Shown here in pieces: positions 17,973-31,503 of a DNA stretch of 32,303 nucleotides (the first letter of the stretch is position 1; each line of letters opens with the position of its first letter). Under the pieces are notes generated by a model that had not been told where the DNA came from, did no database searches, and was given only the letters and a program-made list of their open reading frames with translations. Source of the DNA: a virus; the IMG/VR virus record IMGVR_UViG_3300010883_000226, positions 1 to 32,303 of that record. One strand, given 5' to 3'. The position numbers were made by a program, and so were the translations under genes.

Positions 17973-18332
17973 ATGAACACTGAACTGACCACCAACGACT
18001 TCAAGATTATCTGGCGAGGGATTCGCAACCCAAACCGCAAAAGTTACACGCATGACAGCGTGAACTACGATGAGCGGGATGCTTCAATCGACAAGTTCCG
18101 AGTACCCACCATCGTCACCTGCCAGGACTGCGACACCACTATGCGGGCCAACATCAGCAAGCGCGACCGGGTCTACTGCGGCAACCACCAGATGCAGCGG
18201 AGTATCAAGCGCAACCAACTCATCGCAGAGCAGTCGGACAATATGTGTGACGAACGATGCCTCAACGCCAGAGGTCACAAGTGTTCATGCTCATGCGGCG
18301 GTGGCAACCACGGAATGTTCTGGAACTTCTAG
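17973..18332 (+). CDS. Cysteine-rich protein with CSCGG.NHG motif, 119 aa
   Basis: The start chosen is ATG 17973 (MNTELTTNDF), because an earlier in-frame codon at 17937 lies inside the -35 box of the promoter. The protein contains CQDC (about residues 50-53), YCGNH (about 69-73) and a C-terminal cluster C..RCLNARGHKCSCSCGGGNHG, a pattern I have seen in small phage zinc-binding proteins of unknown role. Several Cys/His pairs make metal binding likely. It is the first gene downstream of promoter A, with no ribosome-binding site, and is followed by a DNA methyltransferase gene. A nucleic-acid role is plausible but not shown. Confidence 0.7.
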   Translation: MNTELTTNDFKIIWRGIRNPNRKSYTHDSVNYDERDASIDKFRVPTIVTCQDCDTTMRANISKRDRVYCGNHQMQRSIKRNQLIAEQSDNMCDERCLNARGHKCSCSCGGGNHGMFWNF

Positions 18333-18346
18333 GGCTTACGGAACCT

Positions 18347-18943
18347 ATGAAATACGAGTCCCTCTATAACAAGTCAGAATCCTGGCCTGTGCTGCGTGAC
18401 ATCTTCGCGCTGCGTTTCCCTGAAGCGGAGACAGTGCTGGATTTGACTTACGGGCTAGGCACATTCTGGAAGTGGGACTACCCATTCAAACTCCACAAGA
18501 ACGATTGGGTGACTGAAGCGGACACCTCCCATGACTTCATCGACTACCCGGCGGCGCGCTACGACGTGGTGGTATTTGACCCGCCATTCTCTGCGATAGG
18601 CCCACCCAGCGACGGAAAGGGCGACTGGTCTGCTCGTTACGGTGCTTCACGCGCTCAAGGCGGCCCGCAGAACATCAAAGAGGTAGTTGCCTACACTCTG
18701 GCCGGTATCGAGTCCGCTATGAGGATCGCCCGCTGCGGTGTCATCTTAAAGACTCAGCGCGTCATTGAGTCCATGAAACTCCACGACGTTCCGCATGCTG
18801 CGAAGGTGGAGATATATTCAAATGGCTGGGAGGTCAGCGACCATGTGTACCTCCACGCACCGAAGCGGCCTCAGCCACCGGGTCGCAGGGTGCTGAACTT
18901 CCGCAACGTACTGAGTGAGTTCATAGTCGCGGTTCCTGGTTAA
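18347..18943 (+). CDS. DNA methyltransferase-like protein, 198 aa
   Basis: The chosen start is ATG 18347 (MKYESLYNKSESWPVL); an upstream in-frame start would run far into the previous gene. DLTYGLGTFW (about residues 32-41) fits a SAM-binding motif I and VVVFDPPFSA (about 74-83) is the DPPF catalytic motif IV of amino-methyltransferases. The short length and the order, motif I before motif IV, indicate a compact single-domain enzyme. No restriction endonuclease is adjacent, so it is probably an orphan enzyme that protects phage DNA. Base and target site cannot be read from sequence. Further downstream lies a Mom-like modification gene. Confidence 0.75.
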   Translation: MKYESLYNKSESWPVLRDIFALRFPEAETVLDLTYGLGTFWKWDYPFKLHKNDWVTEADTSHDFIDYPAARYDVVVFDPPFSAIGPPSDGKGDWSARYGASRAQGGPQNIKEVVAYTLAGIESAMRIARCGVILKTQRVIESMKLHDVPHAAKVEIYSNGWEVSDHVYLHAPKRPQPPGRRVLNFRNVLSEFIVAVPG

Positions 18944-18970
18944 CCAAACCGCCCCCCCAGCGAATGGAAT

Positions 18971-19044
18971 GTGGACTAATCCAATCTCGCTTTAGGGGTT
19001 GACGTTCTGAGCGGAGCGATGTTATTATTTATATATCGAAGTTA
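18971..19044 (+). repeat. 74-bp perfect direct repeat, copy 1 (promoter plus leader)
   Basis: Bases 18971-19044 are identical to 21040-21113. The repeat covers an upstream CTAATCCAATCTCG element, the promoter and the start of the leader (ATATATCGAAGTTA). The near-identity implies recent duplication or gene conversion. Confidence 0.85.
18999..19028 (+). promoter_or_regulatory. Rightward promoter, family copy B
   Basis: TTGACG (18999-19004), 18-base spacer, TATTAT (19023-19028). The 40-base leader carries ATATATCGAAGTTA and CCGAAAAGGGAACCACC before the ATG at 19069. Confidence 0.8.
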
Positions 19045-19068
19045 GAGGAACCGAAAAGGGAACCACCA

Positions 19069-19239
19069 ATGCTTACATCAAATGAATTTCTCGCCATCTA
19101 CGTTGCATGGTACGGCGATAAAGATGCCCGATACGGAATTGATGATTTCAGCCGACTGATGAACGATGTAAAGAGGGCGTGGACAAACGACACCCCCGAA
19201 GACAGCATCAACGCCATCGCTGAACTGGTACTCAACTAA
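19069..19239 (+). CDS. Hypothetical protein, 56 aa
   Basis: This short gene is supported by its promoter (copy B), the shared leader immediately before its ATG and a hairpin cassette after its stop. The protein (MLTSNEFLAIYVAWYGDKDA, then IDDFSRLMNDVKRAWTNDTP) looks fully helical, with a mix of aromatic and acidic residues. No family is recognised. It is the first gene of a cassette that continues to at least 21071. Small helical acidic phage proteins made from strong early promoters often act on host proteins, but nothing here identifies a target. Confidence 0.7.
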   Translation: MLTSNEFLAIYVAWYGDKDARYGIDDFSRLMNDVKRAWTNDTPEDSINAIAELVLN

Positions 19240-19248
19240 ACACCAACC

Positions 19249-19272
19249 AGGGGCGGCAACCTCGCCGCCCCT
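19249..19272 (+). repeat. Intergenic hairpin cassette, copy 3
   Basis: AGGGGCGGC pairs with GCCGCCCCT, loop AACCTC. It starts 9 bases after the stop at 19239 and is followed by AGGAAAGGAAACAGCGC and the ATG at 19296. There is no T tract. Confidence 0.8.
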
Positions 19273-19295
19273 ACTAACAGGAAAGGAAACAGCGC

Positions 19296-19544
19296 ATGAA
19301 ACTCGTAAATACCGTAACCGTAAAGCCGTGGGGCAGTCGCATCACACTCGTTGACCTGCGAGAAGATGGCGGCAAGTGGGGATTGCGATGCGAGAACCAC
19401 GGGGCCACATGGTTGACCTTCAACACTCGCGCCCTTGCTTTAGATGAACGCCAGAACCCTGACGCATGGTGCGACGATTGCCAAGCGTCCCTGACGTGGT
19501 TTGAAGCAGGTATGCAGGACAACGAATGGGTAGAGGAAGAATAA
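19296..19544 (+). CDS. Small protein with Cys/His metal-site candidate, 82 aa
   Basis: No family is recognised. A beta-rich N-terminus (KLVNTVTVKPWGSRITLVDL) is followed by C32-ENH-35 and, after about 22 residues, CDDC (about 59-62). C..H and C..C pairs at this distance suggest a single zinc ribbon. The C-terminus is acidic (DNEWVEEE). Translation starts after a hairpin cassette, and its stop overlaps the next ATG (TAATG at 19542-19546), so it is coupled to another cysteine-rich gene. Its neighbours include DNA modification genes. Confidence 0.65.
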   Translation: MKLVNTVTVKPWGSRITLVDLREDGGKWGLRCENHGATWLTFNTRALALDERQNPDAWCDDCQASLTWFEAGMQDNEWVEEE

Positions 19545-19678
19545 TGGATTGCATCGAATGTCAGTACGGGGATGGCGATGCAGATTACGATATTGCCTCC
19601 TGCGAATACGACCACTGCCAAGAGCCAGTATGCGTTTACTGCTACGCCGACCACAAGCGAAATCACGACGAGGCATAA
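19544..19678 (+). CDS. Very small B-box/RING-like zinc protein, 44 aa
   Basis: This 44-residue frame starts at an ATG overlapping the upstream stop by one base and ends one base before the next ATG. It has C3xxC6, C20, C25, C30xxC33 and H37, H41: eight regularly spaced ligands in 44 residues, the number needed for two zinc ions. The order C2..C-C..C2..H-H resembles B-box or cross-brace zinc folds. No family is recognised, and such short domains are hard to classify by eye. It lies in a run of three coupled small genes before the Mom-like gene. Confidence 0.65.
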   Translation: MDCIECQYGDGDADYDIASCEYDHCQEPVCVYCYADHKRNHDEA

Positions 19679-19679
19679 T

Positions 19680-19943
19680 ATGAACATCTGGATTGACCCC
19701 AACGTAAACGAGAAGGCGGAGAGTGGGAAGTATGATGCGGTTGAAGTCCAGCCCATAGTTGACGACCCTATCTCCAAGACGTGCGAGCCAACCACCAACC
19801 CAACCGAAGCAGATTTCTGGAGCGTCTACTTGCACACCCCTGACGCGGGTGCGGTCTGTGTTGCTGACCTACCCAACGAGCATGAAGCAAATACCCTAGC
19901 TTCAAAACTTGAAACGCTCATCTGGAATTATTTGAACGGTTGA
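19680..19943 (+). CDS. Hypothetical protein, 87 aa
   Basis: The start chosen is ATG 19680 (MNIWIDPNVNEKAESGKYDA), one base after the previous stop; a longer frame from 19572 would overlap the zinc protein fully. Visible parts are an N-terminal strand, an acidic/Thr-rich middle (PISKTCEPTTNPTEADFWSV), a second strand pair (YLHTPDAGAVCVADLP) and a C-terminal helix (NEHEANTLASKLETLIWNYL). It looks like a small alpha/beta protein. Its stop overlaps the TTG start of the Mom-like gene (TTGA, 19940-19943), so the two are translationally coupled and may work together. Confidence 0.65.
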   Translation: MNIWIDPNVNEKAESGKYDAVEVQPIVDDPISKTCEPTTNPTEADFWSVYLHTPDAGAVCVADLPNEHEANTLASKLETLIWNYLNG

Positions 19944-20677
19944 TTACCGCATGGCAATATGAACTCAGGGAGAAGTCGCGAGCATCAGATCAAGGCGACT
20001 TGTTTGGGCGGTGGTGGGAAGAACTCAATCTGGATATTCAATCATCCACTGTTCAACGCATCACACCTGACACAGCGAAGCAGATCATACTCAAATACGA
20101 ATGGCTCGGCACTATGCCGCCCTTCATTCAGGATTGCTTCGGCCTGTACTTTGAAGGGCCGCTGGGCCTGACGCTTGGCGGCGCGATTGTTTTCAGTCAG
20201 CGACTTGAAGCAAACCTCAAAGATGCCGAGCATATGAAGAAAACCGTAATCCCTCCAGAGGCGGTCTACCTTTCCCGCGGGGCTTGTGCGTGGTGGACAC
20301 CAAAGAACTCAGCGTCTTACATGATTGCTAATGCGGCGAAGCAGATGGGGAATGTGTCTGTATTGGCATATGCCGACCCTGACGCGGGAGAAGTTGGCTC
20401 CATCTATCAAGCATTGAACTGGGTATATGTCGGGCCTACTAAAGATCATTCCGACCCCAGCGGGTTCTACGTGGATGGCAAATTCAGATCAACCCGCGAT
20501 TTAAAGATGTATTCGACAAAGAGGGTACAAGCCGCCTATCCACAATCAGAAGTGAAGGCGAGCGCACGCAAGCACCGGTACTTAGGTATCTACGGAGACA
20601 AGCGGTGGCGAAAATCTATGTCGGCCCGCATGGAACCTCACGCCCTGCCATATATGAATAGGTATGCAGATGAATAA
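19940..20677 (+). CDS. Mom-like DNA adenine modification protein (GNAT-type), 245 aa
   Basis: The phage Mu Mom family belongs to the GNAT-like fold and converts adenine in phage DNA to a bulky methylcarbamoyl form, blocking restriction. This protein has the family pattern: a GLYFEGPLGLTLGGAIVFSQ strand pair (about residues 68-87), YLSRGACAWWTPKNSASYMI (about 110-129), and VLAYADPDAGEVGSIYQALN followed by WVYVG (about 141-165). The length is close to Mu Mom. The start is TTG, overlapping the previous stop as TTGA; no in-frame ATG occurs before residue 59. A weak start fits a protein that is toxic if overproduced. Assigned from remembered family features; the exact modification is unknown. Confidence 0.75.
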   Translation: MITAWQYELREKSRASDQGDLFGRWWEELNLDIQSSTVQRITPDTAKQIILKYEWLGTMPPFIQDCFGLYFEGPLGLTLGGAIVFSQRLEANLKDAEHMKKTVIPPEAVYLSRGACAWWTPKNSASYMIANAAKQMGNVSVLAYADPDAGEVGSIYQALNWVYVGPTKDHSDPSGFYVDGKFRSTRDLKMYSTKRVQAAYPQSEVKASARKHRYLGIYGDKRWRKSMSARMEPHALPYMNRYADE

Positions 20678-21071
20678 GTGGAACGGCCTAAAACGTACAG
20701 AGTTGAAGCGCGGCACGTCACGGTTGAAGCGGTCGCCCTTTGTCTGGCAGCACAAGCCCATCCCGCAGCAGTCAGCGAAGCGGAAGGCCATCGCCCCACA
20801 GAGAGCCGAGTTTGTGCGCGCCCTACTAACCTCGCACCCATCCTGTCAGGCGGTTCTCTCTGGCGTATGTACGGGTCGCTCTACGGAAGTCCATGAGTCC
20901 ATCAGGCGTAGTGCTGGCGGGGCCATCGTACCCTGCGAGAAGGCTACGGCTCAGGGTCAAACATTCTGGGCCTTGTGCCACTCATGCCATGAGGTCTGCA
21001 CCAACCCCAGCGCAGAGCAGCGGGACATGCTGCTGGGCCGTGGACTAATCCAATCTCGCTTTAGGGGTTGA
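20670..21071 (+). CDS. HNH-like zinc protein, 133 aa
   Basis: The start chosen is ATG 20670, seven bases after an AGGT site; an ATG at 20664 is also in frame. The N-terminal 45 residues are very basic (KRTELKRGTSRLKRS). Then C59 and C67 (CQAVLSGVCTG), EVHESIRRSAGG with H75, and ALCHSCHEVC (about 101-110) form an HNH/treble-clef-like pattern. The central Asn is not obvious, so nuclease activity is uncertain. Its last codons lie inside the 74-bp promoter repeat (21040-21113). DNA binding or nicking is a reasonable inference. It overlaps the Mom-like gene by eight bases. Confidence 0.6.
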   Translation: MNKWNGLKRTELKRGTSRLKRSPFVWQHKPIPQQSAKRKAIAPQRAEFVRALLTSHPSCQAVLSGVCTGRSTEVHESIRRSAGGAIVPCEKATAQGQTFWALCHSCHEVCTNPSAEQRDMLLGRGLIQSRFRG

Positions 21072-21113
21072 CGTTCTGAGCGGAGCGATGTTATTATTTA
21101 TATATCGAAGTTA
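21040..21113 (+). repeat. 74-bp perfect direct repeat, copy 2 (overlaps HNH-like gene end)
   Basis: Identical to 18971-19044. Here the first 32 bases encode the last residues of the HNH-like gene, while in copy 1 they are non-coding, which hints at which copy is the source. Confidence 0.85.
21068..21097 (+). promoter_or_regulatory. Rightward promoter, family copy C
   Basis: TTGACG (21068-21073), 18-base spacer, TATTAT (21092-21097). Its -35 box overlaps the stop region of the HNH-like gene. The leader ends CGGAAAGGGAACGCACCACC before ATG 21141. Confidence 0.8.
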
Positions 21114-21952: not shown

Positions 21953-21976
21953 AGGCCCGCCCCCGGCGGGTCTTTT
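21953..21976 (+). terminator. Intrinsic terminator ending cassette C
   Basis: CCCGCC (21956-21961) pairs with GGCGGG (21965-21970), extended by outer pairs, then TCTTTT. It is closely related to the terminator at 22629-22655, including the preceding CCGCCCTAATTGAATATC. Confidence 0.85.
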
Positions 21977-22012
21977 CATTTAAGCCCTCGCTAATCCAAT
22001 CTCGATTGGGGG

Positions 22013-22628: not shown

Positions 22629-22655
22629 AGACCCGCCGCCCCCGGCGGGTCTTTT
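22629..22655 (+). terminator. Intrinsic terminator ending cassette D
   Basis: AGACCCGCC (22629-22637) pairs with GGCGGGTCT (22644-22652), then TTT C. It lies between convergent genes: the rightward gene ending at 22603 and the leftward SIS gene ending at 22657. The minus-strand side has no good T tract. Confidence 0.85.
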
Positions 22656-22656
22656 C

Positions 22657-23220
22657 TTATGTCGAGAAATCAGGGCCGTAAACGGGTGCGCCGATACCAC
22701 CAGCGACCATATGAATTACTGCGCTGTGCGCGTCCTCTATGGGGCCATACTCACGGCTGGGGATATGCACCACGTCATCGCAGAGCGGCTTCAATCGCCC
22801 GCCATCCATACCGAGGATTCCCCACACTTTGACGCCCTGATAGTCCTTGTACTTCTTCGCCATATCAATGCAGTTCTGCGAGTTGCCTGAGCCGCTAAAG
22901 AGAAGCAGCATATTAGGCATGAACAGCGCGCCGCTAGAGTACGACCGACTGTGTGCGCCGTGGTATCCCATATCGTTGCTCTCTGCGGTGAGCCATGCGT
23001 TATCTGCCAGCAGGTCGAACGCTGGTATCCCTGCCTGACGTAGATGCAGAACCAGGTGCGCCGCATTCGCCTGAGAACCACCGTTGCCCATCACGTAGAC
23101 CGCCCCGCGGTTTTCGTGCAGGTCTTTGCATAACTGGGCCACACGGCCAACCTTGATCTGGCCCACCGCCCGAAGCGTTGCAGCTTGCAGCGACTTGATG
23201 CGGGTCGTATCAACCTTCAT
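22657..23220 (-). CDS. SIS-domain sugar isomerase, GmhA-like, 187 aa
   Basis: GmhA converts sedoheptulose 7-phosphate to a heptose 7-phosphate. This protein has the same length class and SIS pattern: YVMGNGGSQANAAHLVLHL (about residues 42-60), LADNAWLTAESNDMGYHGAH (about 71-90), LLFSGSGNSQNCIDMAKKY (about 106-124), and a C-terminal EDAHSAVIHM with His165 and His170. Compared by memory with E. coli GmhA, the final histidine is kept, but the helix Glu (Glu65) aligns with His59 and the Gln before the last motif with Glu162, so the substrate may differ. ATG 23220 overlaps the methyltransferase stop as ATGA. It is the last gene of the leftward operon. Confidence 0.75.
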   Translation of the reverse strand: MKVDTTRIKSLQAATLRAVGQIKVGRVAQLCKDLHENRGAVYVMGNGGSQANAAHLVLHLRQAGIPAFDLLADNAWLTAESNDMGYHGAHSRSYSSGALFMPNMLLLFSGSGNSQNCIDMAKKYKDYQGVKVWGILGMDGGRLKPLCDDVVHIPSREYGPIEDAHSAVIHMVAGGIGAPVYGPDFST

Positions 23221-23783
23221 AGTACCATCACGGTCTGCGCCATACGCTTCGCTGCAATCTCGCAATAGCGTTCCTCGATCTCGATACCGATAGCCTTGCG
23301 TCCCAAGTCTTTAGCCGCGCGCAGAGTTGTGCCGCTGCCCATGAAGGGGTCAAGCGCGACACCATCCGGGCAGCGTTTGAGTAATGCCCTCATTAGTTGA
23401 ATTGGCTTCTGTGATGGATGTTCATTCAGTTTGTCTTGTCCAATCTGTGCCGTGACAGACGATGTGATTGATGAATAGCGAAATAATCGCATCATTCCGG
23501 GCCAGTTAAACGAATACACTAATTCGATCAGATCAGGGTTCTTTGCTTTGTCCCAAATAGCTACGGATTCATACGGATACGGGAACATCGCCCGCGCTGT
23601 CCAGAACCACACCTGCGGAATATCAAGCGCAGCGACCTCAGAGAGTCCAATTGAACCGTATTCAAGATGCGCTGTGGGATACGGCGGGTCAGTCAGCACA
23701 AGGTCTGCGCTCAACTCAGGCAGCAACTCGCGGCAGTCAGCATGGTAGATCGTGACTGCATCATCGGAGTAGTAGGGTTTCAC
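23217..23783 (-). CDS. DNA methyltransferase, beta-type motif order, 188 aa
   Basis: This enzyme methylates adenine N6 or cytosine N4 in DNA. LVLTDPPYPTAH (about residues 28-39) holds the DPPY catalytic motif near the N-terminus, and ALDPFMGSGTTLRAAKDLGR (about 143-162) holds the SAM-binding motif near the C-terminus, preceded by HPSQKP (122-127). That order (IV before I) marks the beta class. The start chosen is GTG 23783, which overlaps the aminotransferase stop as GTGA and has GAGGAG eight bases upstream; a GTG at 23792 is the alternative. Coupling by four-base overlaps to sugar enzymes on both sides is unusual and ties it to that pathway. Confidence 0.85.
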   Translation of the reverse strand: MKPYYSDDAVTIYHADCRELLPELSADLVLTDPPYPTAHLEYGSIGLSEVAALDIPQVWFWTARAMFPYPYESVAIWDKAKNPDLIELVYSFNWPGMMRLFRYSSITSSVTAQIGQDKLNEHPSQKPIQLMRALLKRCPDGVALDPFMGSGTTLRAAKDLGRKAIGIEIEERYCEIAAKRMAQTVMVL

Positions 23784-24880
23784 CCCTGCCACTCCTCAAT
23801 CACGCTGCACATATAGGCCACTTCTTCGCCCGTGAGGTATTCGTGAATCGGTACGCTCACATGCTGGTCGCAGAACTGCTCCGCTATTGGGAAGTCACCA
23901 CGGGCGTATTCTAGGGGCCGCATCGCTGGTTGGAGATGGAACGGTATCGGGTAATGCACCTTCGCCTCAACGCCGTTCTCAACCAGGTAGTCGAGGAACG
24001 CTTGCCGGTCGCCATCCACGATGATCTGGTACAGATGATAGGCGTGGCCGGTTCCAGGTTCGACGTAGGGCTTCATTAGTCCATCCACCCTATCGACCGC
24101 CTCATCAAGCAGCAGGGCGTTCTCTGCGCGCCGCGCTGCCATCGTGTCGTAATCATTGAGGACTTCCAGAACCATCGTTGCCTCGACTGTACTCATGCGG
24201 TGGTTGTATCCCGGCTGCTCCCACAGGTCGCGACCTTTGAGGCCGTGGTTCCTGAGTGACCTGCTGGCATCATCTACCGCCGCATCATTGGTAGCGATCA
24301 CGCCACCGTCAGCCCAGCCGTGGACGTTCTTCAATGGGTGAAGCGAGTAGCAGAAGGCGTATGCGTCTTTGAGCCGGTCGCCAATCTTCTGATCTACGAA
24401 CCGACCGTTGACCGCTTGCGCTGCGTCAACGACCAACTTCGGGCCGTTCTTGTGATGCCACCATTCGATGCCGTAGAGATTGCCAGCCCATAGCACCGGC
24501 ACAACCCAGTCATATTGCGTACCGTCGAAGTGTGCGATGTTCGGAGCGTCCACCCGGTCAACGTCCGTGAACACCGGCTTACCGCCAGCCTGAATGATCG
24601 CGCCAGTAGTAGCGATGAACGATACAGGCGAGGTCAGCACTTCCTCACCTGGTTGCAGCCCAGCAGCCTGTAACGCCACAGCGATTGCGTCTGTCCCATT
24701 GGAACACCCGATTGCGTGCTTCGTGCCTACGAGTTCGGCCCATGCGGACTCAAACTCAGCGACCTCTCTGCCGAGCGTAAAATCCCCACGGGAAGCCAGC
24801 GCGCCAAGTCGCGCCAGTATCCGACCTGTGAGTGGGGTCGCGTCAAACTGCCGGTCAAGATAGTTGTACGGCACTCTCAT
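23780..24880 (-). CDS. DegT/DnrJ-type sugar aminotransferase, 366 aa
   Basis: Enzymes of this family transfer an amino group from glutamate or glutamine to a keto-sugar nucleotide, with PLP as cofactor. Visible landmarks are FTLGREVAEFESAWAELVGT (about residues 34-53), GCSNGTDAIAVALQAAG (about 58-74), VVDAAQA with Asp152, and FCYSLHPLKNVHGWADGGV with the PLP lysine at about 184. The C-terminal part (YHLYQIIVDGD, then GVEAKVHYPIPFHLQP and CDQHVSVPIHEYLTGEEV) is typical, and length is normal. The product would be an amino sugar. It follows a short membrane peptide gene and is coupled to the methyltransferase by GTGA. Confidence 0.88.
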   Translation of the reverse strand: MRVPYNYLDRQFDATPLTGRILARLGALASRGDFTLGREVAEFESAWAELVGTKHAIGCSNGTDAIAVALQAAGLQPGEEVLTSPVSFIATTGAIIQAGGKPVFTDVDRVDAPNIAHFDGTQYDWVVPVLWAGNLYGIEWWHHKNGPKLVVDAAQAVNGRFVDQKIGDRLKDAYAFCYSLHPLKNVHGWADGGVIATNDAAVDDASRSLRNHGLKGRDLWEQPGYNHRMSTVEATMVLEVLNDYDTMAARRAENALLLDEAVDRVDGLMKPYVEPGTGHAYHLYQIIVDGDRQAFLDYLVENGVEAKVHYPIPFHLQPAMRPLEYARGDFPIAEQFCDQHVSVPIHEYLTGEEVAYMCSVIEEWQG

Positions 24881-24882
24881 AA

Positions 24883-25017
24883 TTATTCTTCTTTCTCCGC
24901 TTCCGCTGTCCGCTTATCCTCTTGCAGCCTGTTCCAGACAAGCCATCCCAGCGTCGTCCAGACACCCGTGGCAATCGTGAAAGTCCCGGCGATAAGTGCT
25001 ATTTCAACAGCAGTCAT
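24883..25017 (-). CDS. Single-span membrane peptide, 44 aa
   Basis: This short frame lies exactly between the epimerase stop and the aminotransferase start, with the same direction as both. Residues about 6-28 (IALIAGTFTIATGVWTTLGW and following LVW) form one hydrophobic helix, followed by a charged cytoplasm-type tail (NRLQEDKRTAEAEKEE). The tail length and charge resemble small membrane anchors or assembly peptides. No family is recognised. A second tiny single-span peptide starts the same operon (28508-28612), so membrane-bound assembly of the pathway is a possible reading. Confidence 0.6.
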   Translation of the reverse strand: MTAVEIALIAGTFTIATGVWTTLGWLVWNRLQEDKRTAEAEKEE

Positions 25018-25018
25018 T

Positions 25019-26002
25019 TCATTCTCCCTTTGTAACGAGATCACCCATGCGGGCGTTGTTGCGGTAGATCGGGTCGTCGGGGTTTATGGCTCCTTGCTGG
25101 AACCATCGAAAGTTATCGCGTACTGCATCGGCGATTGAGCGAACGCATTTGAAACCTAATTCTTTCTCGGCCCGGCTACCATCCATTCGATATGAACGGC
25201 TGTCCTCAACGTCCACTGTTTCAACAACGGCCTTGATACCTTCCTCACCCGCAACGGTCTGCACAGCCGCCGCAATATCACGCACAGTAAAATTGCCCTG
25301 CGTCAAATTCCACGGCTTGCCAGCTACACCCTCATGCGTCAGCAGCAGACGGTAGAAGCGCACCACATCCTGGACGTGGACATTGGAGCGGAATTGGTCG
25401 CCGCCGTAGGGCGTAATCACACCATCAAAGAACGCTTGCTTGCTGAATATGTTGACCACCGTATCGAGCCGCATCCTGGGGGCTGGCCCCATCGCCGTTG
25501 CCTGTCGCACAGCGGTTGCCACCCTCCCTTGCCTATTTGCCAGCAACACCACCCGCTCACCATCCAGCTTCTGAGCAGCGTATTTAGTTTTGGGTATCGG
25601 TTGTGCGTCCTCGTCGGGGATACCATCTTCCGCAGCAAGGCCGTATACGCTGCTCGATGATGCGTACACGAGCCTCCCGACGTTGCAGACCTTTGCCGCC
25701 CTGATGATGTTCTCCGTACCGCCTACGTTCACTTCTGCGCCGAAGGTAGGATTCATGTCAACCAGTTCATCGGTGACGACCCCAGCAAGATGAATGACCG
25801 CATCCATTCCAGCGGATGCCCGTTCAACAGCTTTGTAATTACGTATATCGCCGGTTATAAAGTCGATGCCTTCGTAGTCGGACAGCGCGTTGCCGAAGTA
25901 GCCGGTATCGAACGTGCGAATGTGATTGTCCTTGTCGCGATGTAGGTACTGAACCAGGGCTGTGCCGATGTAACCAGTTGCGCCAGTAATGAGGATATTC
26001 AT
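25019..26002 (-). CDS. NAD-dependent sugar epimerase/dehydratase (extended SDR), 327 aa
   Basis: This class of enzyme changes nucleotide sugars through an NAD-bound keto intermediate. ILITGATGYIGTALVQYL (about residues 3-20) is the G..G..G cofactor motif, DAVIHLAGVV (about 67-76) is a standard SDR strand, LVYASSSSVYG (about 111-121) holds the catalytic Ser/Thr, and KYAAQK gives Tyr141 and Lys145. The rest (VHVQDVVRFYRLLLTHEGVA, then PWNLTQGNFTVRDIAAAVQT) is normal, and length is typical. I cannot tell 4-epimerase from heptose epimerase or dehydratase by eye. A GGGAG site precedes ATG 26002. It is probably the source of the keto sugar used by the aminotransferase. Confidence 0.85.
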   Translation of the reverse strand: MNILITGATGYIGTALVQYLHRDKDNHIRTFDTGYFGNALSDYEGIDFITGDIRNYKAVERASAGMDAVIHLAGVVTDELVDMNPTFGAEVNVGGTENIIRAAKVCNVGRLVYASSSSVYGLAAEDGIPDEDAQPIPKTKYAAQKLDGERVVLLANRQGRVATAVRQATAMGPAPRMRLDTVVNIFSKQAFFDGVITPYGGDQFRSNVHVQDVVRFYRLLLTHEGVAGKPWNLTQGNFTVRDIAAAVQTVAGEEGIKAVVETVDVEDSRSYRMDGSRAEKELGFKCVRSIADAVRDNFRWFQQGAINPDDPIYRNNARMGDLVTKGE

Positions 26003-26012
26003 CTGTGTCTCC

Positions 26013-27380
26013 CTACGCCAAAATAGATTTTATGAAGCCTTTGAGTTTGTTGAACGGTACAGGGATGTTGCCCTCAGTCTCGACGTGAATGGCCGCTGCT
26101 GCCGCGCCAACTAATGCAACTCCCATGATCGGCGCGCCTGATTTTACGAGCGGTGCTGAGTAACTCAGGAACGCATCACCCGCACCGATCCTGTCTACTG
26201 GCGAATGACTGAACGCCGGGACGTGAAGATACTGAGGCCCGCCCCTATCGGTATGGCAGAGCAACGCGCCCTGATGCCCGCGGGTAACGACCAACATGCT
26301 CGCGCCCAGTCTGGTCATTTCGGAAATCATCTTCTGGTCAATCGAGGTGTTCAGTGGTTGCGCCATATCCAGTTCGACCGCATCCACGACAACGTATGAA
26401 GCCCGGTTCCATTTCCGCAGGGTATTGAAGCCCCAGTTGAGCGAGTTGGCCTGGACGGTGAGGGCTATCCAGTTGAACGCCCCTGTGACCTTCCGCATCG
26501 TTGCATCATCTGGGAACATGCCGTGGCCGAAGTCAGCGACGATTGCGCCATCGACTGAGCCAGAGTCGAAGGGTACATCAGGCCATACCCATTCACCCGT
26601 GGAGTCAGCAAGCGAGAACACCTTTTGATTGAAGGCATCCACCCATCGCCGCTTCGTGACGTAACTCTCCTGCGCCCATTCGGGCAGGTCTACATTCTTC
26701 ACGAAGTTCCGCAGGTGTGCAGCGATAACCCGACTGCCGCCAGCGTAGGCGGTCTGCTTGCCGGTTGGCACGTATGTAATCACGTTCTCTTTCGGCGACT
26801 TGTTGCGTGGCTCAACGAATACATATTCATCGGCTATCGCTTCGCCCAGGACAGCGAAGGAGTTGGCAGCAGCCGCAGAGAGCCACCCGTCAACATCCTC
26901 GTATGAATAGTGCCGTTTAAATAGATCGAGCCACCTCAGCGCATCGCCGGGCAACGTGGGCATGACCTGGTTAATGGCCCGGCTGGATGAGTCCAGTTCT
27001 GTGTCGGTATAGACCAACTCTCCGCCGTGAGCCTCCACCGCTTTGCGCTCGGCATCCAGCATCCCATTCGTATCGAAGTCGCGGTAGTCCTTGCCCTTAA
27101 TGTAAATATCAGGCTCGATCTTTTCGATGGCCGCTACCGCTGAATCTGACTGCGTGATGATCGCGCCCCAGACGTATTGCAGCCCGGCGACAACCATCGC
27201 GCGCTGGTCGTGATTGAACACAGGGCGACCCGGCCCCTTATTCACGAAGTCGTCATGGGTGATGCTCACAAGAAGCTGGTCGCCCAATTCTGAGGCAGCT
27301 TTCAGGTGCGCTACATGGCCGTGATGCAGCACGTCAAATACGCCATGCGCCAGCACGATAGTCGGTTTCTTAGTCGGCAT
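26013..27380 (-). CDS. Nucleotidyltransferase/PfkB kinase fusion, HldE-like with swapped halves, 455 aa
   Basis: Residues about 1-140 are a cytidylyl/adenylyltransferase domain: VLAHGVFDVLHHGHVAHL with the HxGH motif at 19-22, IYIKGKDYRD (about 92-101) and SSSRAINQ (131-138). Residues about 175-455 are a PfkB-type kinase: LGEAIADEYVFVEP..KSPKENV (about 178-200), YAGGSRVIAAHLRNF (about 212-226), and the catalytic DRIGAGDAFLSY (about 396-407). In E. coli HldE the kinase precedes the transferase, so the order here is reversed, as also known in some bacterial homologues. The kinase would phosphorylate C1 and the transferase would add NMP. A C-1 phosphatase (GmhB-like) is not in the window. GAGGGAGA precedes ATG 27380. 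Confidence 0.8.
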   Translation of the reverse strand: MPTKKPTIVLAHGVFDVLHHGHVAHLKAASELGDQLLVSITHDDFVNKGPGRPVFNHDQRAMVVAGLQYVWGAIITQSDSAVAAIEKIEPDIYIKGKDYRDFDTNGMLDAERKAVEAHGGELVYTDTELDSSSRAINQVMPTLPGDALRWLDLFKRHYSYEDVDGWLSAAAANSFAVLGEAIADEYVFVEPRNKSPKENVITYVPTGKQTAYAGGSRVIAAHLRNFVKNVDLPEWAQESYVTKRRWVDAFNQKVFSLADSTGEWVWPDVPFDSGSVDGAIVADFGHGMFPDDATMRKVTGAFNWIALTVQANSLNWGFNTLRKWNRASYVVVDAVELDMAQPLNTSIDQKMISEMTRLGASMLVVTRGHQGALLCHTDRGGPQYLHVPAFSHSPVDRIGAGDAFLSYSAPLVKSGAPIMGVALVGAAAAAIHVETEGNIPVPFNKLKGFIKSILA

Positions 27381-27395
27381 AGTCTCCCTCTGTGC

Positions 27396-28511
27396 CTACA
27401 AAAAGTTGCGGTGCGGTACGTCGCCTGTCGCTGGCTCGATACGCTGGATACCCTTCACATGATTATCGAGAGCGACGTTCGTATAGTGCTGAATGGCGAG
27501 CGCGCCCATATGCTTCGCTGCGTCGAACTGGTCTGAGGCCAGCAGGTTCATCACGTCCCAATATCGGTCGCTGCGCCATATATCAATGAACCGCTCATCC
27601 ACGTAGTTGCCGATGTGGTACGCCGCATACTGTCGGTTGAATAGCATCCCCGTGGGAGCGACCAGGCCAGAGCCGCTAATCTGCAACAGGAATGGAGTGG
27701 CATACATGCGCTTGTACGAAGGCTTGTCGCCGGTCTTGATCTTGCTCCACTTCACGATCACCTGGGTCGTATCGTTGCTCATGGTTTCAGCTTCGTGCAG
27801 GGCTGCATATATCTCAGGGTAACGCTCGTACTCCACGCCCATCGTGCGAGCCTCGTCATCGGATGTGTGCTTGATTACAGCGTAGTCCACGCCGAGGTCG
27901 ATACCGAGTTGAGAGAAGTCCCGAATCTTCTGCCCATCGTCGGGCGTGACGAAGGTCTGGATGCCGAGCGTCACGGCTAAGTTATCCCGTTCCTTTAGGG
28001 CAACCGCGTATCGAACATTCTCCTGCATCACTTCCCATGCGTCGGTGTTCTCAGGGTCGTGGTGCATCATGCGGTTGAAGTCTGCCCGTGTCCCTGCCAG
28101 CACCGTAAAGCGTACCCAGTCGAGCAGAGGCAGCACTTCATCCGATACTTCGGGAGTTAGCCGCCAGCCGTTCGTGGCGTTGCCTACGCTCATCCCACGC
28201 TCAACTGCGCCCTTGATGAATGGGACGTAAGCCTTCGACAATGTGGACTCACCATCACTGATTAGGCTCAGGCCGCGCACACCCATCTCAGCGCAGTCGT
28301 CTAAGAACTGCATCGCTGCATCGTGGGTGATGTTGGCGCGCTCACCTGGTTCCTGGAGCATGGCGTAGCAACCACGGCAGGACGCTTGGCACGCGCGGGT
28401 CAGGGCCATATCTATCGTCACCGGGGCGATGCGTTCTCCAGCTTCCCACGCCTCTACGCGGTCGGTGTGGTAAGCGATCTTCGTGCCATCGAGAATGTAT
28501 TGCTCGCTCAT
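27396..28511 (-). CDS. Radical SAM protein, 371 aa
   Basis: The start chosen is ATG 28511 (MSEQYILDG), because it overlaps the stop of the tiny upstream gene as ATGA. Residues 41-48 (CQASCRGC) give the C-x3-C-x2-C motif that binds the 4Fe-4S cluster, followed by a Tyr, and SLISDGESTL (about 82-91) matches the GGE-type SAM-binding motif. The middle (VRFTVLAGTRADFNRMMHHD) fits a TIM barrel. The C-terminal part (SGSGLVAPTGMLFNRQYAAY and YWDVMNLLASDQFD) has no clear second cluster, so SPASM is not supported. The substrate may be a sugar nucleotide, judging from its neighbours, but radical SAM chemistry is too varied to say. Confidence 0.85.
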   Translation of the reverse strand: MSEQYILDGTKIAYHTDRVEAWEAGERIAPVTIDMALTRACQASCRGCYAMLQEPGERANITHDAAMQFLDDCAEMGVRGLSLISDGESTLSKAYVPFIKGAVERGMSVGNATNGWRLTPEVSDEVLPLLDWVRFTVLAGTRADFNRMMHHDPENTDAWEVMQENVRYAVALKERDNLAVTLGIQTFVTPDDGQKIRDFSQLGIDLGVDYAVIKHTSDDEARTMGVEYERYPEIYAALHEAETMSNDTTQVIVKWSKIKTGDKPSYKRMYATPFLLQISGSGLVAPTGMLFNRQYAAYHIGNYVDERFIDIWRSDRYWDVMNLLASDQFDAAKHMGALAIQHYTNVALDNHVKGIQRIEPATGDVPHRNFL

Positions 28512-28612
28512 CGCACCCACTCAATCAACCACATCACAGACCCCAGTATCGGGAGCATCACAATCGTCTTGATGATGCCCCATTTTTTGGTGCGATAGCG
28601 GTCGGTGTTCAT
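28508..28612 (-). CDS. Tiny single-span membrane peptide, 34 aa
   Basis: This 34-residue frame (MNTDRYRTKKWGIIKTIVML, then PILGSVMWLIEWVR) has a basic start and a hydrophobic helix. Its stop overlaps the radical SAM start as ATGA, and its ATG begins seven bases after a TAGAAT -10 box, so the message would be nearly leaderless. There is no ribosome-binding site. It could be a leader peptide that couples translation, or a real membrane peptide. Being first in the operon and coupled to the next gene argues that it is translated; function unknown. Confidence 0.5.
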   Translation of the reverse strand: MNTDRYRTKKWGIIKTIVMLPILGSVMWLIEWVR

Positions 28613-28619
28613 GGCTGGG

Positions 28620-28628
28620 ATTCTAGCA
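28620..28628 (-). promoter_or_regulatory. Candidate leftward promoter of the metabolic operon (extended -10)
   Basis: On the minus strand TGCTAGAAT (28628-28620) is an extended -10 box, with seven bases then the ATG at 28612. The -35 region is weak (AGGAGC, 28648-28643). It lies inside the left arm of the inverted repeat at 28623-28679, back-to-back with promoter E. Confidence 0.5.
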
Positions 28629-28679
28629 CTTCCCCCTGAATTGCTCCTGATTGGGGGTTGACACTATCGGAAGTGCTAG
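28623..28679. promoter_or_regulatory. 11-bp inverted repeat across divergent promoters, operator candidate
   Basis: CTAGCACTTCC (28623-28633) and GGAAGTGCTAG (28669-28679) are perfect inverted copies, 35 bases apart. Each arm touches one promoter: the left arm overlaps the leftward -10 box and the right arm lies in the spacer of promoter E. This is a good place for one regulator to control both directions. A CGGAAACTGCTAG variant also lies in the spacer of promoter A. Confidence 0.55.
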
Positions 28680-28687
28680 CGTATATT
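28658..28687 (+). promoter_or_regulatory. Rightward promoter, family copy E
   Basis: TTGACA (28658-28663), 18-base spacer, TATATT (28682-28687), preceded by GGGGG. The leader carries CATATCGAAGTTAGG and CCGGAAAGGGAACCATC before ATG 28727. It is the only copy with the full TTGACA consensus. Confidence 0.8.
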
Positions 28688-28726
28688 TTACATATCGAAG
28701 TTAGGAACCGGAAAGGGAACCATCAA

Positions 28727-28942
28727 ATGACCACCGCAGAAACCAAAGCACAGGTTCGCAAAGAGATTCTGGCCGAGGCCGAAGAAAACGCGATTGAATC
28801 CCTCATCAGTGAGGCTGGCGCGATGGCAGACCTTCTCACCCGCAAAATGAAGTGGGAGAAGTTTGGCGGCGCAATCGAATCCAGAACTGAGAAACTAGCA
28901 GAATTAGTGGCCGAAGTTCACAGGCTTCGCGACCTCGCATAA
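28727..28942 (+). CDS. Hypothetical coiled-coil protein, 71 aa
   Basis: No family is recognised. The start chosen is ATG 28727 after the shared leader; an earlier in-frame codon lies inside the promoter. The protein (MTTAETKAQVRKEILAEAEE, then NAIESLISEAGAMADLLTRK and RTEKLAELVAEVHRLRDLA) is helical throughout, rich in Glu, Lys, Ala and Leu, with heptad-like spacing, so a coiled coil or dimer is likely. It is the first gene after promoter E and is followed by a hairpin cassette. Small helical phage proteins of this kind often bind other proteins. Confidence 0.65.
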   Translation: MTTAETKAQVRKEILAEAEENAIESLISEAGAMADLLTRKMKWEKFGGAIESRTEKLAELVAEVHRLRDLA

Positions 28943-28950
28943 CACCATCA

Positions 28951-28970
28951 GGGGCGGCGAGAGCCGCCCC
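28951..28970 (+). repeat. Intergenic hairpin cassette, copy 6
   Basis: GGGGCGGC pairs perfectly with GCCGCCCC, with a GAGA tetraloop. It starts 8 bases after the stop at 28942 and is followed by AGGAAAGGGATAATCAA and ATG 28991. Confidence 0.8.
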
Positions 28971-28990
28971 ACTAGGAAAGGGATAATCAA

Positions 28991-29536
28991 ATGATTACGT
29001 CAGTATTGATAGGCTGGGCCACCATAACCGAGGCCCGCGAAATCACCAACCGCAGCGAGTACGCACGCTGGTTCGACACCATCGAAGCACTCCCCGGTCG
29101 CTACCCGATTATCGGTCAGTTGAAGAACGGCAAGTTCGACTACTACACGGTGCGCTATACCGGCCTCGTTATTCGCTCCAACAACCAGTCCTGCTACGGC
29201 GGCGTGCCAATCGGCAAGGGCGGCATTGATGAGCATGTTGGGCAGACCATGACCGCCAGTCAGGGCGGGTACGGGTACTCACTCAGCGACGTGATTATGA
29301 ATGACCTTGAAACCCCCGGCATCAGCTACGAACTGTTCCCGTGGGTCGAGGTAACTCGCACACGATTCTGGATTGAGGGTCGCCAGAACACCGTGACCAA
29401 GAAAGATGAGCCGGGTCGATGGGCCACCACCGGCAGCGTCCAGCCCCGACCCAACAACGAGGAAGTAATCAAGGCGCAGACCGTAACCTACGCCTCAGAC
29501 ATTGGACATGAAGTTTTCGCACCCGTAGGGGGCTAA
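28991..29536 (+). CDS. Hypothetical protein, 181 aa
   Basis: No family is recognised. The first 20 residues (MITSVLIGWATITEAREITN) include a short hydrophobic segment but not a clear membrane helix. The rest is mixed alpha/beta with a Gly/Tyr/Ser-rich middle (GQTMTASQGGYGYSLSDVIM) and a polar C-terminal part (GRQNTVTKKDEPGRWATTGS, then VTYASDIGHEVFAPVGG). It is the largest protein of these cassettes. A hairpin terminator follows its stop. It could be a modification or inhibitor protein, but there is no evidence for either. Confidence 0.65.
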   Translation: MITSVLIGWATITEAREITNRSEYARWFDTIEALPGRYPIIGQLKNGKFDYYTVRYTGLVIRSNNQSCYGGVPIGKGGIDEHVGQTMTASQGGYGYSLSDVIMNDLETPGISYELFPWVEVTRTRFWIEGRQNTVTKKDEPGRWATTGSVQPRPNNEEVIKAQTVTYASDIGHEVFAPVGG

Positions 29537-29540
29537 TTTA

Positions 29541-29600
29541 GCGGCTCCCCTGCCGCACCCTTTCCGATGGCCCGCTCCCAACTACCTCTGGGGGCGGGCC
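29541..29600 (+). terminator. Tandem hairpins after cassette E (weak terminator)
   Basis: A short hairpin GCGGC/GCCGC (29541-29556) is followed by a longer one, GGCCCGC with GCGGGCC (29569-29600, inner CCC/GGG pairs). The T tract is poor. The layout mirrors 30180-30238, with CACCCTTTCCG between hairpins in both, so the pair is one conserved module. Confidence 0.6.
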
Positions 29601-29651
29601 TGTCGGTTAAGGGGCTATCTCAACTAAAACTAAATTGCCACTGATTAGGGG

Positions 29652-29681
29652 TTGACGGTTTAGAACGTTGTAGCGTATATT
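29652..29681 (+). promoter_or_regulatory. Rightward promoter, family copy F
   Basis: TTGACG (29652-29657), 18-base spacer, TATATT (29676-29681), preceded by ATTAGGGG. The leader holds ACATCGAAGTTAG and CGGAAAGAGAACCACC before ATG 29723. Confidence 0.8.
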
Positions 29682-29722
29682 TATTACATCGAAGTTAGTT
29701 ACACGGAAAGAGAACCACCAAA

Positions 29723-29884
29723 ATGACCGACGCACAGAAACTCATCAACATCGAGAACCGCATCGCACGCGCAGTTGCCAGTGTTCACGGATACATCACC
29801 AAGTCTGAGATTGATGAGCGGGACAGGCTCCAGAAGATCGTCGGGCGAGAGTTCGATGCAGTGAACAACAAGTGGGTTAACTAA
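29723..29884 (+). CDS. Hypothetical protein, 53 aa
   Basis: This short gene is supported by promoter F, the shared leader and the hairpin cassette after its stop. The protein (MTDAQKLINIENRIARAVAS, then GYITKSEIDERDRLQKIVGR and NNKWVN) is helical, with roughly balanced Lys, Arg, Asp and Glu. No family is recognised. It would be the first product of the cassette. The size and the helix pattern are similar to those of the first genes after promoters B and E, although no homology can be claimed. Confidence 0.7.
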   Translation: MTDAQKLINIENRIARAVASVHGYITKSEIDERDRLQKIVGREFDAVNNKWVN

Positions 29885-29894
29885 CACCATCACC

Positions 29895-29914
29895 GGGGCG
29901 GCAGGAGCCGCCCC
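29895..29914 (+). repeat. Intergenic hairpin cassette, copy 7
   Basis: GGGGCGGC pairs with GCCGCCCC, with an AGGA loop. It starts 10 bases after the stop at 29884 and is followed by AGGAAAGGAAAAATCAAA and ATG 29936. Confidence 0.8.
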
Positions 29915-29935
29915 ACCAGGAAAGGAAAAATCAAA

Positions 29936-30175
29936 ATGTCAATCATATTCGTACACTTGCAGGGCAGTCACATGGACACCATGAACTGCCAGCCCGTTAC
30001 CGAGCAGCGCACCATCGACCATCGCCAATGCCCCGCCGCCATCGCTGTCGATGATGTGACAGGCATGGAGGCCGAGTGGCCCGCACACTGGCCGACACGC
30101 ATCGTTATCCCTGAGTTTGTTGAGAGCGACTGGGATGACAACGACGAACGTGAATGGGGTGAGTTCGACGACTAA
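29936..30175 (+). CDS. Hypothetical acidic protein, 79 aa
   Basis: No family is recognised. The N-terminal part (MSIIFVHLQGSHMDTMNCQP) holds a short strand, the middle has two scattered cysteines, and the C-terminus is very acidic (IPEFVESDWDDNDEREWGEF, then DD). Such an acidic tail could bind a basic protein or nucleic-acid-binding surface, but this is speculative. The start is set by the shared leader. It is followed directly by the UUCG-loop terminator. Confidence 0.65.
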   Translation: MSIIFVHLQGSHMDTMNCQPVTEQRTIDHRQCPAAIAVDDVTGMEAEWPAHWPTRIVIPEFVESDWDDNDEREWGEFDD

Positions 30176-30206
30176 TATCGCGGGACACTCCCGCACCCCT
30201 TTCCGT

Positions 30207-30238
30207 AGACCGTTCACCCTTCGGGGTGGGCGGTCTTT
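30207..30238. terminator. Strong terminator with UUCG tetraloop between convergent genes
   Basis: A 13-bp stem runs from AGACCGTTCACCC (30207-30219) to GGGTGGGCGGTCT (30224-30236), closed by TTCG on a C-G pair, followed by TTT. A small CGGGACACTCCCG hairpin precedes it (from 30181). It separates the rightward gene ending at 30175 from the leftward gene ending at 30242. Confidence 0.8.
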
Positions 30239-30241
30239 GGG

Positions 30242-30562
30242 TTAAGCGTCTATCTCAACACCACGCAAGCGGCGCAAGGAATTCATATCGCCTTTGACTT
30301 CCAGGTAGCAGCGCAGACTAGGCTCCACATGCTCCTGAATTGCAGCCTGAACGCGCCGTACAGCCACGCCAGTCTGGGCAGCGGTGTTATCCGGTACGCT
30401 CAGAATTACCCGCCCCTGTGCGCTCGCCGAGATAACCTGCACCGTAGCGTCAACGTCGTAAGCGGCAATCTCGCACGCTTCCTTGCGGTCGCGTTCGTCG
30501 GTGCATTTCCACCAGTCTGACACGGCTGCTATCTCCGCATATGGGTCGCCGATTGTGACCAT
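30242..30562 (-). CDS. Hypothetical protein, 106 aa
   Basis: No family is recognised. The protein begins MVTIGDPYAEIAAVSDWWKC, has a charged helix (TDERDRKEACEIAAYDVDAT), two beta segments (VQVISASAQGRVILSVPDN) and an ending with SLRCYLEVKGDMNSLRRLRG. The layout suggests a small alpha/beta domain. It overlaps the E1-beta-like gene by one base (TAATG at 30560-30564), so the two are co-translated and may be partners. It is the last gene of the leftward group and abuts the UUCG terminator. Confidence 0.6.
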   Translation of the reverse strand: MVTIGDPYAEIAAVSDWWKCTDERDRKEACEIAAYDVDATVQVISASAQGRVILSVPDNTAAQTGVAVRRVQAAIQEHVEPSLRCYLEVKGDMNSLRRLRGVEIDA

Positions 30563-31503
30563 TAGAACGGGCCTCCTGTTGGTACGAATGGTTCGTCTAT
30601 ATCGCCCACCACAGATTCAGATTCTTCGCCGAGCAACCGCAACGCAGCATTCGCAATATGAGCGGGTGTCGGATACCACTCTTGCTCCAACGGATACGAT
30701 GCAGGAACGGGCGTAGCAGGTGGCCGAACGATCAAAGAATCAATGCCATTCATCATCATCCTGATTCCAATGTCTGCCGCCAGCCCTTGATTGTTCAGGT
30801 CAGCGATCACCACTCGGCGCAGCGTTGGAAATGAAGCGTTGGGGTTGCTCATGCTGGCCCACTCCGCATTGATGCCACGCTTCCGCAGCAAGGCGCAAGC
30901 CTCAATACAATCTAGCGTTGTCGCCGACAAGCCGACGAGTTGAATGTCCGCTGTGTCAGGGTCGCCGTATTGCGACATATCACCCTTGATCTCAGACTCG
31001 TACAAACGCCGATGTTCAAATACGACTGTCGGCCCCTCTATATCTGTATAAACACGCTTCAGCGCGGGGATGGTTGCGGGCAGTAATGTCCTCAACCCAG
31101 GGTCAGCGGCGAACCAGTGAGCGGTGGATTGCGTATGCTGCGGGCCGTTGCCCCAGCCCTGGCCGATGATACAGCGCACCATCAGATTCGGTGCGTCGCT
31201 GCCCATGTATCCCCACTTCGCAGCGGTGTTGATTAGATGCTCCATAGAGAGCGTCATAAAGTCGGCGCGGGCGTGTACGAGTATTGGCTTCCAGCCGTTC
31301 TGTGCGAGGCCCACAAGCGCGCCTGTGAGCATGGTTTCGCTCAGGGGTGTTTCAATAACGCGATCTGGGAAGCGTTCATGGGCCAGCTTGGTCGTGCCGA
31401 AGATGCCCTTCTCATCGGTGACACCTGCACCCATAACGATCACGCGGGGGTCGCGCTCCATGAGGGCTACCGTTTCGTGCGCTATCGTTTCAGCGTAGTT
31501 CAT
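30562..31503 (-). CDS. E1-beta/transketolase pyrimidine-domain protein, 313 aa
   Basis: The start chosen is ATG 31503 (MNYAETIAHETVALMERDPR), which overlaps the upstream stop as ATGA; a longer frame exists but would overlap that gene. The sequence follows 2-oxoacid dehydrogenase E1-beta subunits closely: DPRVIVMGAGVTDEKGIFGT (about residues 18-37), VIETPLSETMLTGALVGLAQ with the TPP-contacting Glu56, PILVHARADFMTLSMEHLIN (about 73-92), and GQGWGNGPQHTQSTAHWF (about 114-131). The C-terminal part ends the family region normally. Such subunits need a partner that binds the TPP diphosphate; none is in the window. As a split transketolase or acyl-transfer enzyme it could supply a sugar or branched group. 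Confidence 0.8.
   Translation of the reverse strand: MNYAETIAHETVALMERDPRVIVMGAGVTDEKGIFGTTKLAHERFPDRVIETPLSETMLTGALVGLAQNGWKPILVHARADFMTLSMEHLINTAAKWGYMGSDAPNLMVRCIIGQGWGNGPQHTQSTAHWFAADPGLRTLLPATIPALKRVYTDIEGPTVVFEHRRLYESEIKGDMSQYGDPDTADIQLVGLSATTLDCIEACALLRKRGINAEWASMSNPNASFPTLRRVVIADLNNQGLAADIGIRMMMNGIDSLIVRPPATPVPASYPLEQEWYPTPAHIANAALRLLGEESESVVGDIDEPFVPTGGPF

Follow-up and report, generated by a model that had tools for sequence, protein, structure and literature searches.

A Mom-family gene in a promoter-repeat-bounded cassette of an HK97-type tailed phage

Organization of the mom locus

The virus record IMGVR_UViG_3300010883_000226 comprises 32,303 bp of DNA (referred to here in its entirety as the window) from an HK97-type tailed phage, whose major head protein, head protease, neck and tape-measure genes are on the - strand. 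Within a series of + strand genes lies a locus encoding a homologue of the DNA-modification enzyme Mom, preceded by several small genes and followed by an HNH-like gene, with identical 74-bp direct repeats at either end. All of the open reading frames in a preliminary description of this DNA are present at approximately the positions reported there. The features of the locus are as follows.

17973-18332, + strand: small Cys-rich protein of 119 amino acids with 8 Cys (PHROG 6842, 1.5e-6); first gene of the upstream unit, outside the mom cassette
18347-18943, + strand: putative DNA methyltransferase, in the unit upstream of the cassette
18971-19044, + strand: left 74-bp direct repeat; HNH 3'-end sequence (GLIQSRFRG and stop) and promoter TTGACG-18-TATTAT (18999-19028)
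19069-19239, + strand: 56-amino acid protein, cassette gene 1; leader/ribosome binding site motif CGAAAAGGGAACCACCAA ahead; codon score 0.283
19248-19273, no strand: G+C-rich intergenic stem-loop GGGGCGGC..GCCGCCCC, one of about seven in the window
19296-19544, + strand: 82-amino acid single-zinc-type protein (C32xxH35, C59xxC62); Shine-Dalgarno energy -5.9 kcal/mol
19544-19678, + strand: 44-amino acid putative two-zinc peptide (C3, C6, C20, C25, C30, C33, H37, H41); Shine-Dalgarno energy -5.8 kcal/mol; weak codon score
19680-19943, + strand: 87-amino acid non-zinc protein, immediately before mom and overlapping it (PHROG 23974, 0.0019)
19940-20677, + strand: Mom-like DNA-modification enzyme of 245 amino acids, YEWLGTM/RGAC subgroup; TTG start in a TTGA overlap
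20664-21071 (start at 20664 or 20670), + strand: HNH-type nuclease-like protein; overlaps the end of mom; C-terminus coded in the right repeat
21040-21113, + strand: right 74-bp direct repeat; promoter TTGACG-18-TATTAT (21068-21097)

A Mom homologue in a distinct subgroup

On sequence comparison and predicted structure the product of 19940-20677 is a true Mom homologue, as the preliminary description had proposed. A hidden Markov model search matches it to the Pfam Mom family (PF25680, 5.9e-21; 75.5 bits against a curated cut-off of 27.1) and to PHROG 1384 (8.3e-22). When an AlphaFold2 model of the protein (predicted local distance difference test score 79) is compared with known structures using Foldseek, the best PDB matches are both chains of 8bv8, the S124A form of Mu Mom (E 1.4e-8; template modelling scores 0.56-0.61), with GNAT acetyltransferases among the next matches. 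A phmmer search of the PDB with the single window protein found nothing, and a profile of the subgroup described below has Mu 'Methylcarbamoylase mom' (8bv8) as its sole match among PDB sequences (2.9e-13). The title of 8bv8 calls S124A an inactive mutant, and the alignment shows the equivalent serine kept as S126 in the window protein; the other aligned residues (window/Mu) are L111/L109, R113/R111, D146/D149, G150/G153, G153/G156, Y156/Y159, Q157/Q160 and A158/A161. The Pfam match, the predicted 8bv8-like fold and the kept serine thus place the protein within the Mom family. It resembles Mu Mom in family, predicted fold and a core that includes the equivalents of Ser124, Asp149 and Tyr159, as well as in having a non-ATG start (GUG in Mu, PMC6483171; TTG in the window) and an overlap with the upstream gene. 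It differs in having EW for HY, RGAC for NRMW and an N-terminal extension of its own, and its gene has neither Com nor a predicted hairpin burying the start.

The window Mom adds a member to this known enzyme family and falls in a distinct subgroup; its setting is new, but the enzyme is mostly ordinary. In a phylogenetic tree it lies with 20 other members on one side of a branch with support 100/99, and ten classical Moms, including those of Mu and of Listeria, Salmonella, Bacillus, Geobacillus, Mycobacterium, Microbacterium and Roseobacter phages, lie on the other. The two sides are marked by a swap of signature motifs, with YEWLGTM and RGAC in the subgroup and, in the classical Moms, mostly an HY pair together with NR-[ML]-W or a motif close to it. 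The environmental phages L001-L044 were collected with patterns including KYEWLGTM, so the uniformity of the motif is partly a product of selection; the classical phages of the tree and phage f2b1 came from an unselected tblastn search. Where classical Moms have the HY pair and NR-[ML]W, the window protein has E54-W55 and R113-G-A-C, motifs in common with the YEWLGTM-type proteins of L001-L044 and f2b1. It sits on a long branch (1.6), its nearest relative being L001 at 40%. All of the subgroup members (23 of 23) match PF25680 and no other family, and we found no characterised member in the subgroup.

The nearest YEWLGTM-type proteins have an N-terminal M-x-x-A/C-W/H-Q start like that of the window Mom, and their genes are often overlapped by the gene upstream. 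The upstream partners identified in these relatives are ParB-like (two called from Pfam, the others from resemblance by eye), methylase or DUF551 genes, whereas the window phage has small zinc proteins instead. We note that one environmental phage contig (L002, 1683-3183) carries two tandem subgroup mom genes behind an overlapping DNA methylase gene.

Translation initiation of mom

The TTG of mom (19940) and the TGA of the preceding gene share bases as TTGA, so that the TTG start coupled to the previous stop that had been described is indeed present. This start is credible because the N-termini of L001, L002 and L014 (MTTAHQ.., MKAHQ.. and MGTCWQ..) begin in the same alignment column as MITAWQ.. 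of the window protein; MITAWQYE was among the search patterns, but these three proteins do not carry it. The mom gene has the sole TTG among the starts examined, and its Shine-Dalgarno energy is -3.3 kcal/mol, compared with -5.5 to -5.9 kcal/mol for the earlier genes of the cassette.

RNA folding around the start, suggested in the preliminary description as a check on Com-like control, does not point to a Mu-like arrangement. The window TTG has a predicted probability of being unpaired of 0.66 and a best local z of -1.0, whereas the Mu GTG control is fully paired (0.00) with a local hairpin z of -3.4, calculated against shuffles that preserve base composition only. A 111-nucleotide fold at the window mom is no better than shuffled sequences (z -0.51; 58 of 200 shuffles fold as well), and since the corresponding Mu fold is just as unremarkable, only the local measure discriminates. 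In roughly half of 16 related loci, mom overlaps a gene upstream that is unrelated in type, although overlaps of more than 20 nucleotides may stem from choosing the leftmost start. Given the poor Shine-Dalgarno sequence, the only TTG and the overlap, the control of mom is best explained by ordinary translational coupling, which we conclude is a simpler explanation than a Com analogue; mom expression would be held low by weak initiation and would depend on coupling to the overlapping upstream gene.

Small zinc-type genes

The three small coupled genes described previously ahead of mom, two of them cysteine-rich, correspond to 19296-19544, 19544-19678 and 19680-19943. The zinc protein said to lie just upstream of mom is nearby in the same operon, but the gene directly before mom (19680-19943) is the non-zinc member. 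In Mu, Com binds a hairpin beside a structure whose stem contains the mom GUG start (PMC6483171). Com of Mu is likewise a small zinc-type protein encoded upstream of mom, but its ligands form a single four-Cys site, CxxC-x16-CxxC, whereas the 44-amino acid peptide has eight potential ligands of a two-zinc type, spaced C-x2-C-x13-C-x4-C-x4-C-x2-C-x3-H-x3-H, and the 82-amino acid protein has the layout CxxH-x23-CxxC. The Com family (PF10122) has no match in the window and none above the cut-off in 36 related virus contigs, compared with 36.7 bits for the Mu control. Neither zinc protein finds anything by tblastn against 50,697 phages; the 82-amino acid protein has no family match in Pfam and PHROG profile searches, and the shorter peptide reaches Pfam zf-B_box under the cut-off (0.082). 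That peptide is the least certain gene of the cassette, with a good Shine-Dalgarno sequence and a start/stop overlap, yet a codon score (-0.018) that falls in the wrong-frame range, and another + frame of the same stretch scores higher (0.073). Further small Cys-rich or zinc-type genes lie elsewhere in the phage (17973, 21763 and 31500), and the zinc mini-genes are most probably small accessory genes of the phage in their own right.

Flanking genes, direct repeats and promoters

The methyltransferase that had been noted at 18347-18943 has the features of a DNA amino-methyltransferase, with an S-adenosylmethionine (SAM) binding motif I, DLTYGLGTFW, and a motif IV, DPPF, both recognised by eye, and a match to PHROG 24333 (8.5e-10); it has no Pfam match, and tblastn against the same 50,697 phages found nothing. 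Because the gene precedes the cassette promoter (18999-19028), it falls in a different, upstream transcription unit; the genes of the previously described 'DNA modification island' are all present, but the term holds only loosely. The HNH-like protein, also as described, is distantly related to the annotated 'HNH endonuclease' Pan5_44 from Pseudanabaena phage Pan5 (34% identity) and has no Pfam or PHROG match. Its motif is altered (VHES, against VHHS in Pan5_44) and its catalysis is therefore uncertain.

A point missed by the preliminary description is that the cassette, containing the small genes, mom and the HNH gene, is bounded by promoter repeats. The two copies (18971-19044 and 21040-21113) have 74 identical bases, extending to 93 bp at 96%, and are 2,069 bp apart from start to start, so that a single crossover would excise precisely this length. 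Each has the sigma-70-like promoter given above. The first 32 bases of the right repeat code the last HNH residues, GLIQSRFRG, which match GLSKSRL of Pan5_44, and the repeat thus joins HNH coding sequence to a promoter. The same tail, with no HNH gene, is present in the left repeat, which follows the methyltransferase stop, and in a third, weaker copy at 21985; other promoters of the phage are without it. The simplest inference from these sequences is that the junction of HNH tail and promoter was duplicated, and that the cassette either entered by insertion or could be lost through crossover between the copies. A DNA search of the phage collection gave no relative, and no close relatives were found through the methyltransferase, HNH or protease proteins in IMG/VR (the protease has two weak relatives only), through the promoter motif, or through the capsid among phages; an empty-site comparison of the cassette was therefore impossible.

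Six + strand promoter-like elements (17929, 18991, 21060, 22005, 28650 and 29644) have a common AGGGGTTGAC core, and five of the six have the conserved leader ATCGAAGTTA. A start-associated motif, CGGAAAGGGAACCACCAA, lies at 313, 625, 19052, 21504, 22066, 22356, 28709 and 29704, in each case just before a start codon (8 copies, with 0.01 expected), and several copies are preceded by the stem-loop GGGGCGGC..GCCGCCCC (about 270, 582, 19233, 21457, 22308, 28951 and 29895). This layout resembles the start-associated sequence (SAS) and extended SAS (ESAS) of cluster K mycobacteriophages (PMC3203893), but the sequence differs. An identical 21-bp terminator-like sequence, CCGCCCCCGGCGGGTCTTTTC, is present twice (21957-21977 and 22636-22656).

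Interpretation of the cassette

Mom enzymes protect against a wide range of restriction enzymes, and the Com switch of Mu is a textbook case of their control. We consider it likely that the locus is an anti-restriction cassette of an HK97-type siphophage that combines a Mom-family subgroup enzyme, ordinary coupling without Com, and a removable module. A plausible scenario is that the sigma-70-like phage promoter (18999-19028) transcribes the four small genes, mom and the HNH gene, and that Mom, as a GNAT-fold enzyme of a separate subgroup of the Mu Mom family, would modify adenine N6 in phage DNA, thereby blocking the restriction enzymes of the host. The poor Shine-Dalgarno sequence and TTG start would keep mom expression low, and its translation would depend on ribosomes terminating at the overlapping upstream stop codon rather than on a Com-type RNA-binding zinc protein; Mu Mom is reported to be toxic upon artificial expression (PMC12707154). 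Homologous recombination between the 74-bp repeats could then gain, lose or swap the cassette. Weighing against this reading are the identity between the window and Mu Moms, which is just 28% and in the C-terminal half; the cost of opening mom from -15 to +12, which at 8.7 kcal/mol is the second highest of 14 starts, near that of the methyltransferase start (9.0), and reflects some local structure; and the failure of DNA, protein and promoter-motif searches to find a relative with an empty site, which leaves the repeats as the basis for proposing mobility.

The preliminary description raised the idea of a Com-like control, in which one of the zinc mini-proteins (19544 or 19296), using an unrelated zinc fold, would activate mom translation by binding the mRNA upstream of the gene. 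The zinc mini-genes are in the mom operon just upstream, the mom start is the weakest of the operon up to that point, and its opening energy exceeds that of most genes; nonetheless we regard this control as very improbable. In addition to the lack of a Com-family match, the unburied start predicted here and the two-zinc ligand spacing, the zinc genes are not directly adjacent to mom, folding prediction gave no RNA target structure, and zinc-type genes are dispersed across the phage. A zinc-like mini-gene candidate within 1.3 kb upstream is found in 3 of 22 related loci, no more than the background rate and never directly before mom, and none directly precedes mom in f2b1, Riggi, SP-031, CRP-902, Lupine, LMSP-25 or Cassita. 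The mycobacteriophages BaconJack, Fastidio and DillTech15 also have mom amid a run of tiny overlapping genes, although their Moms are of the classical subgroup, and in the Cheoctovirus phages DillTech15 and Fastidio a CxxC mini-gene overlaps the annotated mom start. We rejected this mini-gene as support, since Fromanvirus BaconJack has a nearly identical Mom preceded by a coupled gene without cysteine. A variant in which the 44-amino acid two-zinc peptide, unrelated to Com, is a convergent activator of a mom weakened by its poor Shine-Dalgarno sequence and TTG rather than by a hairpin is similarly hard to credit.

The other alternatives concern chemistry and mobility. The subgroup may have kept the Mom fold but install another group, or act on another nucleobase or another kind of substrate, and the clean split from the classical Moms, with HY replaced by EW and NR-[ML]-W by RGAC, would fit such a change. 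However, the serine equivalent to Mu S124, the Asp-x3-Gly-x2-Gly-x2-Tyr-Gln-Ala core and the arginine are retained, and the Pfam family is the same, so we consider divergent chemistry unlikely. The HNH-mom pair could also be a mobile homing module, whose spread is driven by HNH with Mom as cargo or as protection of the target; the HNH gene directly follows mom, both are between identical repeats, and an HNH gene adjoins mom in Geobacillus phage PK3.6 and is near mom in Salmonella phage SP-031. This is highly doubtful, given that the repeats are a promoter plus an HNH tail, that their promoter portion is similar to promoters elsewhere in the phage, that PF01844 is present in just 2 of 23 related contigs, and that HNH genes are common in phages.

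The existence of a Com-less Mom subgroup, in phages whose upstream genes vary, suggests that only Mu-type systems have specialised in the Com switch, and coupling combined with weak initiation could serve more generally to keep Mom activity low. The promoter-repeat cassette illustrates a route by which phages might acquire or shed protection genes.

Other genes of the window

The - strand region at 22657-31581 contains a heptose-type sugar gene set: a GmhA-like isomerase (22657-23265), a DegT aminotransferase (23780-24880), an NAD epimerase (25019-26002), an HldE-like adenylyltransferase/kinase with reversed domain order (26013-27380), a radical SAM protein (27396-28520) and a half resembling transketolase or pyruvate dehydrogenase E1-beta (30562-31581). 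The set suggests phage-encoded synthesis of an ADP-heptose-like nucleotide sugar. A second DNA methyltransferase gene (23217-23792, - strand; N6_N4_Mtase, 2.9e-22) overlaps the GmhA-like gene.

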